64,000 nt of DNA from Asaia bogorensis. GTDB taxonomy: Bacteria; Pseudomonadota; Alphaproteobacteria; Acetobacterales; Acetobacteraceae. Below, one piece after another: positions 4,832 through 9,258 of this stretch (position 1 is its first letter; each line of letters begins with the position of its first letter). The stretch lies in contig CAMBRC010000005.1 in NCBI GenBank assembly GCA_945869965.1, forward strand, positions 1 to 64,000. Reading direction: 5' to 3'. A model generated the notes under the pieces. That model was given only the letters and a program-made list of their open reading frames with translations, ran no database searches and was not told the origin of the DNA. The translations under genes and the position numbers were made by a program.

Positions 4832-6009
4832 GCGATGTGTGCCGCAAGGCCGCGGCGGGGCGCCGGATCGGCGATCGCGGTGCCGGCCGGCAGGTGGCCG
4901 AGCCGGGCCAGCATCTGCACGGTAAAGCGCGGCAAAGCGGCATCGAGCAGGGCGTGGATGGCGCGGTGGTGCGGTTCCACTTGCGGGTACTCCTGCAGGG
5001 ATTGCTGATTGGGATGCATCGCCAGTCCGGCGAGCGTGCCAGCGAGGTTGACCCTGGCATAGGCGCGGCCGGCATCGATCTGCAAGCGGCGCGTGTTGCC
5101 CTCGGTCACCAGCCAGAGATAGACCGGGGTGGTGGCGGTGACGCGGTCGAAATCGGCGATCTGGGTGGTGATGGCCTGGGAGTCCGGCGCCGGCGGGACG
5201 CTGCGGTCGAACAGCCCGGCCTTGGTCAGCGCGACCAGCATGGGCTTGGTGATGGCAATGCCGTCGCGATACCGGTCAATCTCGCGGCTGCCGACGCGCA
5301 GCACGTGGTAGGACTCCATGATCGCCGGCGCGGTGGTCAGCTCGGTTTTCCAGGCGGCGCGAGCGATGTCGCGGATCGCCTGGGTGCGGGCGGGCGCCTC
5401 CGGACCGCTGACGCCGAAGCGCACGGCAAGCCCGGCGCTGGCGGCGGCGAGGCGGGCCAGGTCGGCGGCGGCGGGGGCACGCGCCAGGTCGTAGGCCCGG
5501 CGGTCGGTGCGGCGGCTGAAAATCGCCGCGAAAAGCGGGTCGCGGGCGGCCGAGGGCTCAGGCAGCAGACGGACATGGGCAAATGGCTTGGCGTCCAGCC
5601 GCTCGCCGGGCTCGCCGTCCGGAAACAGGCGGATTTCCGCCCGATGGCCACGTTCGGCGGCCGCCATGGCGAGCAGCTCAAGGAACGCGCCGGCGCCCAT
5701 CATGATCTGGCGCCCGAACGGGTCGGTGGCGGGCAGCAGGCGCGCGGTGTCCAGGCGCAGGGTGACTGCGTCAGCGCTCGCCCCGGCAGGGCCGAAATCG
5801 GCGATCCAAGGCTGCATGTTGTGCGGGTTTGGCGCCAACAGGGCGTGAGCAAGAACGAAGCGGCGAACATCGGGGTTCGCGGCGGCTTCGCGCCAGGCGG
5901 CGATGGCGGTGTCCGGGACGCCGAACACCTGCCATTGGCTGGCGGCGGCGGCCGTGGCGGCGAGGATGACGCCACCAGTGGCGAGACGGAGGATGTTTCG
6001 GCGTTTCAT
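4828..6009 (-). CDS. Tat-exported Acg-type nitroreductase-fold protein
   Basis: A 393-aa protein resembling the Acg family of FMN-binding nitroreductase-fold proteins. The N-terminus MKRRNILRLATGGVILAA is a twin-arginine-like signal followed by an alanine-rich hydrophobic segment, so export of a folded cofactor-bound protein is likely. Family-type motifs include LLAPNPHNMQPWI (about residue 60) and SRRTDRRAYD (about residue 165). Acg proteins are thought to bind or sequester flavin rather than act as ordinary nitroreductases. It is the first gene of an operon with marR and has the palindrome 6028-6045 about 20 bp before its ATG. Physiological substrate unknown. Confidence 0.8.
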   Translation of the reverse strand: MKRRNILRLATGGVILAATAAAASQWQVFGVPDTAIAAWREAAANPDVRRFVLAHALLAPNPHNMQPWIADFGPAGASADAVTLRLDTARLLPATDPFGRQIMMGAGAFLELLAMAAAERGHRAEIRLFPDGEPGERLDAKPFAHVRLLPEPSAARDPLFAAIFSRRTDRRAYDLARAPAAADLARLAAASAGLAVRFGVSGPEAPARTQAIRDIARAAWKTELTTAPAIMESYHVLRVGSREIDRYRDGIAITKPMLVALTKAGLFDRSVPPAPDSQAITTQIADFDRVTATTPVYLWLVTEGNTRRLQIDAGRAYARVNLAGTLAGLAMHPNQQSLQEYPQVEPHHRAIHALLDAALPRFTVQMLARLGHLPAGTAIADPAPRRGLAAHIA

Positions 6010-6027
6010 GTTCGTATTTCCTGAATG

Positions 6028-6045
6028 TAGTTTATCATTAAACTA
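6028..6045. promoter_or_regulatory. Perfect palindrome, likely MarR operator
   Basis: TAGTTTA-TCAT-TAAACTA is a perfect 7-4-7 inverted repeat in an AT-rich patch, 18 bp before the ATG of the nitroreductase-like gene of the marR operon. Its size and position fit a MarR-family operator overlapping the promoter. The divergent selenoprotein-like gene begins about 160 bp away, so control of both directions is possible. Confidence 0.6.
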
Positions 6046-6203
6046 TTTTTTGCGCCAATGCAAAGCTTCACGCGACGATCCCCGGGTCATGTCCGTGGAG
6101 AAACCATGCCGAGCGGCGACGCTGTCGGGTGACCGCAAGCAAGATGTGCAACGGCCGGGCCAATGTGCGAGTCTGTCCACACCGCATTCATATGGGAGGG
6201 TCC

Positions 6204-6872
6204 ATGACGACGCTTACGGAACAACTGGCGGCGATGCGGCTTGCCGCATTTGGCGACGCCGCCAAACCTGGACGTATTCCGCCAGAGGCAGCGGCGGTGA
6301 TGCACCGGGTGACCGCCGACCAGCGGGCTTCGGGCTATACCGATCGCATGCCCAAGCCAGGCAGCGCGATGCCCCGGTTCAGCCTGGCCGATACCGACGG
6401 CACGATGGTGGACTCGGCGGCGCTGCTGGCGCGCGGACCGCTGGTGGTGTCGTTCTTTCGCGGCGCGTGGTGACCGTACTGTAAATCAGAGCTGTATGCT
6501 TTGAATGCAGTGTTGGCCACTATTCGTGATCTCGGCGCCGAGCTGGTGGTGATCTGCCCGCAGGTGCCGGCGATCCTCGCCGATCTGAAGACCAAGCAGT
6601 CGCTGGATTTCCCGCTGCTGCATGATGCCGGCAACGCCTATGCGGCGAAGCTGGGGATTGCGATGACGCTGCCGGACGACCTGGTGGCGATCTACACCAA
6701 GTTCGGCATCGACCTGCCGAAGGTGAATGGCGACGGGGCATGGCAGCTGCCGGTGCCGTCGCGCTGGGTGGTGGATGCGGCGGGCGTGTTGCGGCATGTG
6801 TTTGCTGATCCCGACTATACCAGCCGGCCGGAACCGGAAGAGACGCTGGCGAAATTGCGCGCCATCGTCTGA
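6204..6872 (+). CDS. Peroxiredoxin-like selenoprotein candidate (in-frame TGA = Sec90)
   Basis: AhpC/TSA-type thioredoxin-fold protein of 222 residues if TGA 6471-6473 is read as selenocysteine. The upstream part ends LVVSFFRGAW, then TGA, then PYC: cysteine homologues carry RGxWCPYC here, so TGA replaces the first (peroxidatic) cysteine and leaves C93 as partner (U90-P-Y-C93). The same frame continues with ELYALNAVLATIRDLGAELV and VVICPQVPAILADL, typical of the family, to the stop at 6870-6872 with no further interruption. ATG 6204 is chosen because GGGAGGG precedes it; an upstream in-frame start at 6129 lacks support. Likely role: thiol- or selenol-dependent reduction of peroxides in the cytoplasm. 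A hairpin right after the TGA fits a SECIS element. If the organism lacks selA, selB, selC and selD, the alternative is a Cys-to-stop pseudogene. No frameshift is present. Confidence 0.85.
6474..6513 (+). promoter_or_regulatory. Predicted bacterial SECIS hairpin
   Basis: Lower stem ACUGUA (6478-6483) pairs with UGCAGU (6506-6511); after a 2x1 internal loop the upper stem UCAGAGC (6486-6492) pairs with GCUUUGA (6498-6504); the apical loop is UGUAU (6493-6497). Two wobble pairs (6477/6512, 6476/6513) extend it toward the TGA. The loop starts 20 nt after the TGA and has G at its second position, as described for bacterial SECIS elements bound by SelB. The hairpin lies inside the coding sequence and shifts local codon use toward A/T (AAA, TCA, TAT, GCT, AAT), unlike the rest of the gene. 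Confidence 0.75.
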
Positions 6873-6932: not shown

Positions 6933-7772
6933 ATGTCCGACAAACCAGTCCTGTTGATCGACAACCCGGCGCCGGGGATCCGGCGGCTGACCATGAACCG
7001 GGCGGAAAAGCGCAATGCGCTGAACAATCCGCTGCGCGGTGCGATTCTGGAGGCGCTGATCGAGGCTGACCGGGACCCCGAGGTGAAGGTGTCGATCCTG
7101 CGCGGGGCCGGGCCGTCGTTCTGTTCGGGCTATGACCTCTCCGCGAACAATGCTGTTGAGCAACCCTATTACACCGCTGGCGGGCCTGGGGCCTGGGCGC
7201 GGCATGTGGTTGAGGGGTGGATGAAGATCTGGGACCTCGCCAAGCCGGTGATTGCGCAGGTGCATGGGCATTGCCTGGCGGGCGGGAGCGAGTTGGCGAC
7301 GTGTTGCGACCTGGTCTACGTGGCCGAGGATGCGAATATTGGCTATCCGCCGGTGCGGCTGATGTCGCCGCCGGACAACCAGTTCCATCCGTGGCTGATG
7401 GGCATGCGCAACGCGATGGAGATGATGCTGACCGGGGACGGGATTTCCGGCATCGAGGCGGCGCAGAAGGGGTTTGCCAACCGGGCGTTTCCGGCGGCTT
7501 CGCTGGAGGAAGAGGTGTTGAAGATCGCGGCGCGGGTGGCGCTGATCCCGACCGAGCTGAACCAGATTAACAAGCGCAGCGTGCATCGGGCGATGGAGGC
7601 GCAAGGGTTGCGGGCGGCGATCCGGGCGGGGACGGAGTTGCAGGCATTGGCGTTCACAACGCAGGCGAGCCTGGAATACCGGGCGCAGTTCAAGCGGGAT
7701 GGCAAGAGCGTGAGCGCGGTGTTGAGCCAGCGGGATGCGGCGTTTGGGGATTATCGGGAGAAGAAGGAGTAG
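6933..7772 (+). CDS. Enoyl-CoA hydratase/isomerase (crotonase) family protein
   Basis: A 279-aa crotonase-fold enzyme acting on acyl-CoA thioesters in the cytoplasm. RRLTMNRAEKRNALNNPL near the N-terminus and the oxyanion-hole segments SFCSGYDLSA (about residue 65) and HGHCLAGGSELATCCDLVY (about residue 110) are family hallmarks. The catalytic glutamate in GGSELA is present, while the second acidic residue of true hydratases is not obvious, so another crotonase reaction such as isomerisation or dehalogenation is possible. GAGGGGA precedes ATG 6933. It runs in the same direction as the selenoprotein candidate 60 bp upstream and is convergent with the methyltransferase gene. Confidence 0.85.
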   Translation: MSDKPVLLIDNPAPGIRRLTMNRAEKRNALNNPLRGAILEALIEADRDPEVKVSILRGAGPSFCSGYDLSANNAVEQPYYTAGGPGAWARHVVEGWMKIWDLAKPVIAQVHGHCLAGGSELATCCDLVYVAEDANIGYPPVRLMSPPDNQFHPWLMGMRNAMEMMLTGDGISGIEAAQKGFANRAFPAASLEEEVLKIAARVALIPTELNQINKRSVHRAMEAQGLRAAIRAGTELQALAFTTQASLEYRAQFKRDGKSVSAVLSQRDAAFGDYREKKE

Positions 7773-7779
7773 CTGGGGC

Positions 7780-8562
7780 TCAGCGCTTGAACACCAGCCC
7801 CTGGCCGGTTGGCAGCGGCATGACGCGGTAGTTGCGGGCCTGGAACCAGGGGTCTTCGGCGATCTTCTGGCCGCGATAGGCCATCGCCCATTCGTAGTCG
7901 TCCAGGACCAGGATGCCGCCGGGGACGATGCGGTCGAACAGCGCGTCCAGCGTGGCCAGTTCGGCGGTGGCCTGGTTGAGGTCGAGGTGCAGGTAGGCGA
8001 TGCGCTCGGGCGCCTGGTCGATGAAGCTGCCGGGGATTTCGCCCTGGACGATGCGCACCTGCGGATAGCCGGCGAACTTGGCGCGGACCGTATCGGCCAG
8101 GCTGGGGCCGTGGGCGGGCATGGAGTGGTGGGCCATGCCGGCTTCGTGCTCGAACAGGTCGTAGCCCCAGAACGTCTTGGGGAAGGCCGGGCCGCCGAGA
8201 TAGTCGACCACCGTCTTGATGCCGACGGCGCGATAGCAGCCGCATTCCACGAAGTCGCCGTCCAGGTGCACGGCGTGATAGGCGGCACAGGCGAGGATGT
8301 AGCGGCGCCAGATCACCGCCCGGTCAGATTCGGACTCGGCGTTGCTCTGCCAGGCCTGGAGAAAGGCGGTGTCCTCCAGCATCGAGTTGTTGCGGCCCCA
8401 GGCCAGGAAGCTGTCGGCGAAATGGACCCCGCCCGGGACGCGGGCGCAGATCTCGCTGGCGAGGCGGGCCACCTCGGCCTGGTCATGGTTGACCCAGACA
8501 CTCGGGTAGAAATAGCTCACCACCTGGGCGGGGTTGGCCGGGGACAGGACGGGAAGGGTCAT
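7780..8562 (-). CDS. TylF/MycF-type class I SAM-dependent methyltransferase
   Basis: A 260-aa protein related to the macrocin O-methyltransferase family, which also contains enzymes acting on glycans and natural products. The SAM-binding part is GDFVECGCYRAVGIKTVVDY (about residues 100-120) followed by KTFWGYDLFEHE. RIAYLHLDLNQATAELATLD and PGGILVLDDYEWAMAYRGQK supply the metal-binding aspartates typical of this family. No sugar-biosynthesis genes surround it. It is convergent with the crotonase gene at only 7 bp and is followed upstream by a small leucine-rich protein gene on the same strand. Acceptor substrate unknown. Confidence 0.8.
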   Translation of the reverse strand: MTLPVLSPANPAQVVSYFYPSVWVNHDQAEVARLASEICARVPGGVHFADSFLAWGRNNSMLEDTAFLQAWQSNAESESDRAVIWRRYILACAAYHAVHLDGDFVECGCYRAVGIKTVVDYLGGPAFPKTFWGYDLFEHEAGMAHHSMPAHGPSLADTVRAKFAGYPQVRIVQGEIPGSFIDQAPERIAYLHLDLNQATAELATLDALFDRIVPGGILVLDDYEWAMAYRGQKIAEDPWFQARNYRVMPLPTGQGLVFKR

Positions 8563-8609
8563 GATATCTCGCTATTTTGGCGATGAGCCTCCCAGCTTGG
8601 GCCGCCGGG

Positions 8610-9137
8610 TTAACAAGGCGTTGCATGACGGACGGCGTTGATATTTGTTTCTGTATCGGAATAACTTGGACAGCATCGTGCTACCCCGCAAGGGGGGGAT
8701 GCGACATCGGGGTCGCGGCGTGCGCGGCGGTGCGCGTGCCCGGCACGGGCGGGCGCATGCCGTGATGGTGCCGGGTGATGTGATGAGGGGGGCACATGCC
8801 ATTGCGGGCGTCGTCCGCGTGCTTGCCATGCGGGCGCGCGCGAGCACGGGGCGGGTTCGGCCAGTTTGCAGGCGGGGTGGCCGTGGCGCGCGGTGCGCGG
8901 GGCGGCGCGGGATTGGCGCGGCATCGGATTGCGGCGGGATTTGATTGGCGACGGGAGGAGGCTGCCGGTCTGCCAGGCCTGGAGGAGGAGTTCCAGGCGG
9001 GCGAAGATGCGCGCGAAGATGGCGGCGATCAGGGCGTGCAGGGACGCCGGCAACAAGGCGCGGTTCTCCCGCGGTGCCCACGCATTGCTGCGCAGGCTCC
9101 TGAGCTGGCCGCTCAGCGGGGATGGACGGTTTTCCAT
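8610..9137 (-). CDS. Small leucine-rich protein with low-complexity tail (family member 1)
   Basis: A 175-aa ORF beginning MENRPSPL. Residues about 33-58 (SLHALIAAIFARIFARLELL) form an amphipathic, alanine/leucine-rich segment; the rest is a proline, arginine and histidine-rich tail that may be disordered. No known domain is recognised. The gene resembles 32071-32526 in its MEN start, the LHxLxAA helix and the AGTTAGTTAG motif just before the ATG, which is why this frame is preferred over an overlapping frame on the same strand. The coding status of the tail is uncertain. Confidence 0.45.
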   Translation of the reverse strand: MENRPSPLSGQLRSLRSNAWAPRENRALLPASLHALIAAIFARIFARLELLLQAWQTGSLLPSPIKSRRNPMPRQSRAAPRTARHGHPACKLAEPAPCSRAPAWQARGRRPQWHVPPSSHHPAPSRHAPARAGHAHRRARRDPDVASPPCGVARCCPSYSDTETNINAVRHATPC

Positions 9138-9148
9138 TCGCGTGCATT

Positions 9149-9158
9149 CTAACTAACT
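9149..9158 (-). promoter_or_regulatory. AGTTAGTTAG leader motif, copy 1
   Basis: On the minus strand AGTTAGTTAG lies 11 nt before the ATG of 8610-9137. The identical 10-mer occurs 14 nt before the ATG of the related gene at 32071. No clear Shine-Dalgarno sequence is visible in either leader, so it may be part of a promoter, an operator half-site pair or a translation signal. Confidence 0.45.
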
Positions 9159-9223
9159 ATGAGATGGAGTGCAAGGAAAAATTACTGGGTGGTGGGGTTT
9201 TTTTAGGAGAGGGTAGGAAGTGA

Positions 9224-9258
9224 GAAGCGTGGATCTTTCGCTTCGCTCAAGATGACGG
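9224..9258. repeat. Short dispersed repeat ending GATGACGG, copy 1
   Basis: About 35 bp beginning GAAGCGTGG and ending GATGACGG. A related sequence in reverse orientation lies at 59245-59282, with about three quarters of positions matching by eye. Both copies sit close to an AT-rich palindrome of the family at 9310-9346, suggesting the two elements occur together. Confidence 0.5.

Follow-up and report, generated by a model that had tools for sequence, protein, structure and literature searches.

Selenoproteins of the peroxiredoxin-like (Prx-like) kind with a UxxC redox motif have been described repeatedly (U, selenocysteine, Sec). The available text of PMC1088965 presents a Prx-like family from the Sargasso Sea in which UXXC replaces TXXU, and that of PMC2398784 a family named 'Prx-like 1' (pfam00578, UxxC), with 225 sequences in GOS. 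Table 1 of PMC13188914, the part of that source used for this comparison, tabulates both Prx-like UxxC proteins and a UxxS group, the cd02970 'peroxiredoxin-like family' (AhpC/TSA family), with WP_010940744.1 and MDX2448127.1 as representatives. An earlier note on the DNA analysed here had stated that UxxC motifs occur in bacterial Prx-like selenoproteins, and the available text of PMC1088965 and PMC2398784 confirms that they were already known.

The 64,000-nucleotide (nt) stretch of Asaia bogorensis DNA analysed here (the window) carries a gene of this kind at 6204–6872 on the + strand, which, judged from its sequence and that of its relatives, almost certainly encodes a selenoprotein. The complete explanation, that this is a functional gene whose UGA is read as Sec via SelB, tRNA-Sec and a SECIS element to give a proposed UxxC enzyme, is held with only slightly less assurance. 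Four lines of evidence argue for a selenoprotein gene and not a pseudogene: the alternation of TGA and Cys in one alignment column, the Sec machinery of the genome, co-occurrence with selA and conservation of the SECIS.

The reading frame opens with an ATG at 6204 and runs to a TGA at 6870–6872, giving a Prx-like (AhpC/TSA-fold) protein of 222 residues with a single inner TGA at codon 90 (6471–6473, +). This codon, the predicted Sec90, is the first of a UPYC redox motif whose partner cysteine, Cys93, is encoded by TGT at 6480–6482 (+) and is invariant among 53 aligned rows, as are R86, G87, W89, U/C90 and P91. By eye, GGGAGGG at 6194–6200 (+), 3 nt before the ATG, is a possible ribosome-binding site with short spacing. 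The string RGAW-TGA-PYC described in the earlier note does lie in one open frame, although the sense codons past the TGA number 132 and not 133 as it had counted. Its expectation that the frame beyond the TGA continues the same fold is borne out by the read-through protein, which matches Pfam AhpC-TSA in one unbroken stretch across residue 90 (residues 53–198; 77.6 bits against a cut-off of 26) and Pfam Redoxin likewise in one stretch spanning residue 90 (66.2 bits). A gene caller does split the frame, as the note had anticipated: simple ORF calling yields 6129–6473 and 6501–6872 as two ORFs.

Homologues of this protein carry TGA or Cys at the active-site position. In a first sample of 147 genomes, comprising the window genome and relatives, 93 had some match to the read-through protein and ten had a strong match carrying one in-frame TGA: the window genome, four congeners (identity of 74–80%), G010 (62%) and G028 (47%), which represent two further genera of the family, and, from the same class, G096, G144 and G115 (44–48%). 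For the four congeners, G010 and G028, the TGA falls on the same column and the matched frame holds no further in-frame stop. The residue-90 column of 30 aligned loci from this sample comprises ten TGA, 20 Cys and nothing else. Among the 385 genomes of the class that formed a second sample, 16 had a match containing a TGA (E ≤ 1e-25); of the 23 new loci from this sample, the 22 that were read have TGA (12) or Cys (10) at the active-site position. The earlier note had placed the TGA at the first Cys of the CPYC of relatives and proposed aligning homologues at position 90, and the combined column agrees, with 22 TGA, 30 Cys and no third state in 52 of 52 rows read; these rows exclude a Cys paralogue in the window genome, L192 (a match at other coordinates) and second copies in G385 and G283. 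Weak TGA-bearing matches in G115:C28, G072, G063, G039 and G096:C741 (E between 5e-9 and 9e-4) were regarded as other redoxins and left out. The Cys paralogue, on contig C42, has CPYC and is 41% identical to the window protein. In G385, two TGA-bearing gene copies are adjacent (G385:C11:4742–5368 and 5655–6281).

Could the window gene be a pseudogene, a Cys-type gene whose TGC/TGT has become TGA through a recent nonsense mutation or a sequencing error? The assembly, in 209 contigs, is a draft, L163, one of the loci found by the pattern search described below, ends 78 codons past its TGA, and the family is not free of stray stops, although the one seen lies away from the active site: the homologue L196 (G401:C114), possibly a decayed gene, keeps its active-site Cys and has a TAG at another codon. 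TGA, by contrast, occupies the same active-site column in five members of the genus and in 17 further genomes. The frame downstream is also constrained, with pS of 0.34–0.38 and pN of 0.10–0.16 past the TGA in four congener comparisons (before it, 0.47–0.56 and 0.15–0.16), and because pS exceeds pN these sequence comparisons indicate that purifying selection acts on the region after the TGA within the genus. Sister genomes carrying the gene were checked for the decay past the TGA that the earlier note had named as a refutation, and none was seen. Its argument that a chance nonsense mutation would hardly fall on this codon is strengthened by the retention of the TGA column in four congeners and two other genera and by the downstream selection. 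Since, in addition, every TGA-form genome of both samples has selA and the SECIS hairpin is kept, as detailed below, a pseudogene or sequencing error is rejected as extremely improbable. The selenoprotein gene is dispensable to the genus, because four of eight congeners (one of these four genomes only 68% complete) have no close homologue and three of those four have selA.

Sec machinery, which the earlier note had predicted, is complete in the full genome, so that the absence of selB and selC, which the note had named as another refutation, does not apply. It includes selA (557.8 bits, cut-off 267.9), selB (355.8 bits, cut-off 242.25), selD (295.4 bits, cut-off 125), which lies on the window's own contig at 71857–72753, beyond the window end, and a tRNA-Sec (selC; 75 bits, gathering score 47) on which ARAGORN agrees, with anticodon TCA. 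The tRNA-Sec model also matches contig C46 (48.6, gathering score 47), a hit that was discarded because ARAGORN identifies it as a tRNA-Ser. The tRNA-Sec gene is near a contig end (L027 6289–6383, −) and on another contig than selB, unlike the nested selB/selC arrangement that the available text of PMC8124441 reports for some Alphaproteobacteria. CofD and F420 ligase genes are present about 4 kb from selB (L025 1262–2964 (−) and 7252–9240 (+)), which makes it probable that the organism synthesises cofactor F420.

Across genomes, the TGA form of the gene goes with selA, which is present in ten of ten TGA-form genomes against 41 of 147 in the background of the first sample, and in 16 of 16 against 56 of 385 in that of the second (hypergeometric P of 1.2e-6 and 5e-15, relatedness ignored); four genomes are common to both samples, so these counts represent 22 different TGA-form genomes. 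In G179, some 2.2 kb separate selA from the TGA-form gene (G179:C73:132481–133833 and 136021–136650).

An in-frame TGA within a conserved gene might also arise if UGA were read as another amino acid, Trp or Cys, through stop-codon reassignment or general readthrough. However, TGA is the gene's own terminal stop, in the window as in all five genus members read, the genome has SelB and a tRNA-Sec with a TCA anticodon, and homologues align Cys at residue 90, never Trp. Code reassignment was rejected on the terminal stop and the conservation of the inner TGA, and we give it next to no probability. In the selenoprotein reading, SelB and tRNA-Sec would decode codon 90 as Sec under the direction of a SECIS hairpin located within the reading frame, directly after that codon.

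A SECIS-like stem-loop is predicted at 6477–6512 (+), just 3′ of the TGA. The 42 nt past the TGA fold at −15.6 kcal/mol, with a 7-bp upper stem, a 5-nt apical loop UGUAU (6493–6497) and a spacing of 19 nt. The hairpin agrees in every respect with the bacterial SECIS model as given in the available part of PMC13188914, namely an apical loop of 3–9 nt, an upper stem of at least 4 bp, a G in the first two loop positions, a spacing of 16–37 nt and an MFE of −7.5 or lower. The folding z-score of 6472–6515 is −3.98, and none of 200 shuffles equals it; the value depends on the stretch folded and lies between −2.25 and −3.31 when the stretch is lengthened or shifted. When the window's stretch is recoded synonymously, 20 of 2,000 versions fold as well as it does. 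As 256 of the 1,384 TGA triplets in the window also fit the model, a lone SECIS-like hairpin is weak evidence by itself, and the argument therefore rests on conservation of the SECIS across Sec sequences. The same model fits the 42 nt past the TGA of a ResA-like gene in this genome (G000:C33), which reads TTWASW-U-GCRLDL with its in-frame TGA at L026:5105–5107 (−) and scores 289.6 bits against NF041054 'ResA-like WAxxUGC', just below the cut-off of 300; it is likely a second selenoprotein.

Conservation separates the two forms of the family. The SECIS model fits 123 of 132 unique Sec sequences (9 fail) against 3 of 29 Cys sequences, a comparison in which the search pattern favours the Sec count by fixing part of the hairpin's 5′ arm; among Cys sequences that share the pattern's fixed bases, 2 of 19 fit. 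Slightly wider criteria give 118 of 121 Sec and 4 of 29 Cys sequences, 3 of 19 pattern-matched Cys sequences and 494 of 2,420 synonymous recodings of Sec sequences (in both comparisons the 29 Cys sequences exclude L196, with its stray TAG). Over the 30 aligned loci of the first sample, the mean folding z-score is −2.97 in the ten Sec rows, with L047 (+0.29) as an exception, and 0.0 in the 20 Cys rows. Third-position GC over the 14 codons past the active-site codon is 0.57 in the ten Sec rows versus 0.81 gene-wide, and the 20 Cys rows show no such drop (0.80 versus 0.78).

Across 121 unique Sec sequences, the window hairpin is not kept as a fixed set of base pairs. Pairs of the lower stem are often missing, two of them forming in just 15 and 27 of the 121, and free folding gives three main registers, with the apical loop 16, 19 or 20 nt past the TGA. 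Because pairs are not kept column by column, the SECIS case is built on the free-fold test and not on covariation. Synonymous-codon conservation among the five genus members is not clearly raised in the hairpin, with five of eight amino-acid-invariant codons kept at 91–100 versus 74 of 148 overall, and it is given no weight in the argument.

AlphaFold2, given the 53-row alignment, predicts the protein with a pLDDT of 97.4 and a pTM of 0.92. The model shows an AhpC/TSA thioredoxin fold in which residue 90 lies just ahead of a helix at 91–102, so that Sec90 would immediately precede the first active-site helix and Cys93 would follow a turn later. Among fold matches in the PDB, Bcp/PrxQ-type peroxiredoxins take the first four places (TM by target 0.84–0.90) and a ResA-type oxidoreductase the fifth. 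Sequence alignment to PDB chains sets U90 on the Thr of 5epf and the Ser of 2cx3, R86 on their Pro and C93 on their Cys, which we take to be the peroxidatic one; alignment to ResA-type proteins sets U90 and C93 on both cysteines of CxxC. The earlier note had Sec replacing the peroxidatic Cys, and this has to be corrected, because Sec aligns with the Thr/Ser of T/S-x-x-C, a position that corresponds to the first Cys of a thioredoxin-like CxxC and not to the peroxidatic Cys.

The same alignments and the Bcp/PrxQ-type fold matches would suit a true peroxiredoxin in which C93 is peroxidatic and Sec90 auxiliary or resolving, a reading to which we assign a minor but appreciable probability. The classical peroxiredoxin active-site motif is P-x-x-x-T/S-x-x-C, and it is lost here: the window protein has R86-GAW-U90-PY-C93, with P replaced by R and T/S by U, and both R86 and U/C90 belong to the invariant positions of the family. 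ResA-type proteins with CxxC match too, and one would expect Sec, at the first motif position, to be the stronger nucleophile. From sequence and predicted structure, the protein is less likely to be a classical peroxiredoxin than a UxxC-type thiol oxidoreductase or an atypical peroxidase. In an enzyme of the latter kinds, Sec90 would act as the attacking selenolate that reduces a disulfide or a peroxide, and Cys93 would resolve it through a Sec–Cys selenenylsulfide, a bond that a thiol reductant would recycle. This chemistry would be nearer to that of thioredoxin/ResA-type CxxC proteins than to the T-x-x-C(P) of classical peroxiredoxins. We regard the division of roles between Sec90 and Cys93 as reasonably probable, and put forward the choice of substrate, disulfide or peroxide, with low confidence. 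More tentatively, the Sec–Cys pair may define a peroxiredoxin-fold selenoenzyme that works by thioredoxin-type UxxC chemistry.

Related genes are widely spread. The degenerate pattern RGxWUPYCxxEL with TGA at U, searched across genome contigs, found at least 117 loci. These include loci from Desulfoluna limicola ASN36 and Desulfosediminicola flagellatus IMCC35005. Each of the 117 matches listed is homologous to the window protein by a threshold of E ≤ 1e-3, and 83 also by one of E ≤ 1e-20; the weaker ones listed include a distinct group at about 24–30% identity, for example FFRGHWUPYCVAELRRWE. At least 90 codons are open past the TGA in 112 of the 117 matches listed, the remaining five being L163 and four that run off the locus. 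By record title, the matches listed fall in at least 13 named phyla, with 6 loci unplaced; Prx-like UPYC selenoprotein genes thus occur in many phyla. A match to the window protein also lies on a plasmid of Kozakia baliensis, likewise of the Acetobacteraceae (NZ_CP014677.1, 76535–77119, minus strand).

In a tree of 128 rows (102 Sec, including Sec rows from the matches listed, and 26 Cys), the window protein groups with its congeners and G010 in sets of 5, 7 and 23 rows that consist of Sec proteins alone (SH-aLRT 99, 99 and 96). The Sec/Cys label changes at least four times on this tree, or twice counting starred branches alone. The tree was made by a quick method with no mixture model, a few of its pairs are the same gene from two collections, and it leaves out L060–L063, L192, L196 and, by a length filter, 37 of the 117 pattern loci listed. 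Its Sec rows were sampled by the pattern, and its counts therefore carry no information on the frequency of Sec relative to Cys.

Downstream of the selenoprotein gene, an enoyl-CoA hydratase-family gene (ECH_1, 137.5 bits; 6933–7772, +) starts after 60 nt, and the two genes may share a transcript. The pair is kept in four of four congener loci (hydratase about 91% identical) and was not found at the six more distant loci searched. On the other side are a 393-residue ORF with no Pfam match and a MarR-type regulator, found at none of the ten loci searched (the four congener and six distant ones).

How does the window protein compare with described families? It shares the AhpC/TSA fold superfamily with Sec-peroxiredoxin (TxxU), in which Sec comes last in the motif, at the peroxidatic position, whereas the Sec of the window protein lies three residues earlier. 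SelL has the motif UxxU, whereas the window protein has one Sec, in UxxC, and matches the SelL-related model (NF040769) weakly, at 22 bits, far under the cut-off of 120. The window protein falls short of the cut-off of every NCBIfam model, the nearest others being thiol peroxidase (36.4 of 140 bits), ResA (30 of 170) and peroxiredoxin (24 of 211). The strongest NCBIfam E-value over the 53 aligned members is 7.6e-15, and we judge their matches to be far below the cut-offs from those shown for the first member. With the nearest models so far below cut-off for the window protein, such genes risk annotation as truncated. It is possible, though we advance this tentatively, that RGxWUPYCxxEL marks a distinct, broadly spread selenoprotein subfamily, or a few related ones, apparently lacking a curated NCBIfam model; pipelines that rely on such models would therefore truncate or split its members.

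In the open-licence literature we found no paper on a UPYC selenocysteine motif or on a peroxiredoxin-like selenoprotein in Acetobacteraceae. The cd02970 family, UxxS in the available part of PMC13188914, resembles the window protein by name, as plasmid relatives are mostly called 'peroxiredoxin-like family protein' among 15 matches listed, but the window protein has UxxC (UPYC) instead. The closest likeness is to the Prx-like UxxC selenoproteins. As the available text of PMC1088965 and PMC2398784 describes them, these share with the window protein a PF00578 (AhpC/TSA) domain with UxxC in place of the Prx TxxU, a SECIS-like hairpin right after the UGA and Cys-containing homologues; the published sets are, in that text, metagenomic and mainly marine, and the likeness is one of description. 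With the window gene, an Acetobacteraceae genome that has the complete machinery gains a well-supported selenoprotein, whose gene and SECIS are kept across genera. It belongs to a kind of protein described by 2005, of which it is a new and well-supported member.
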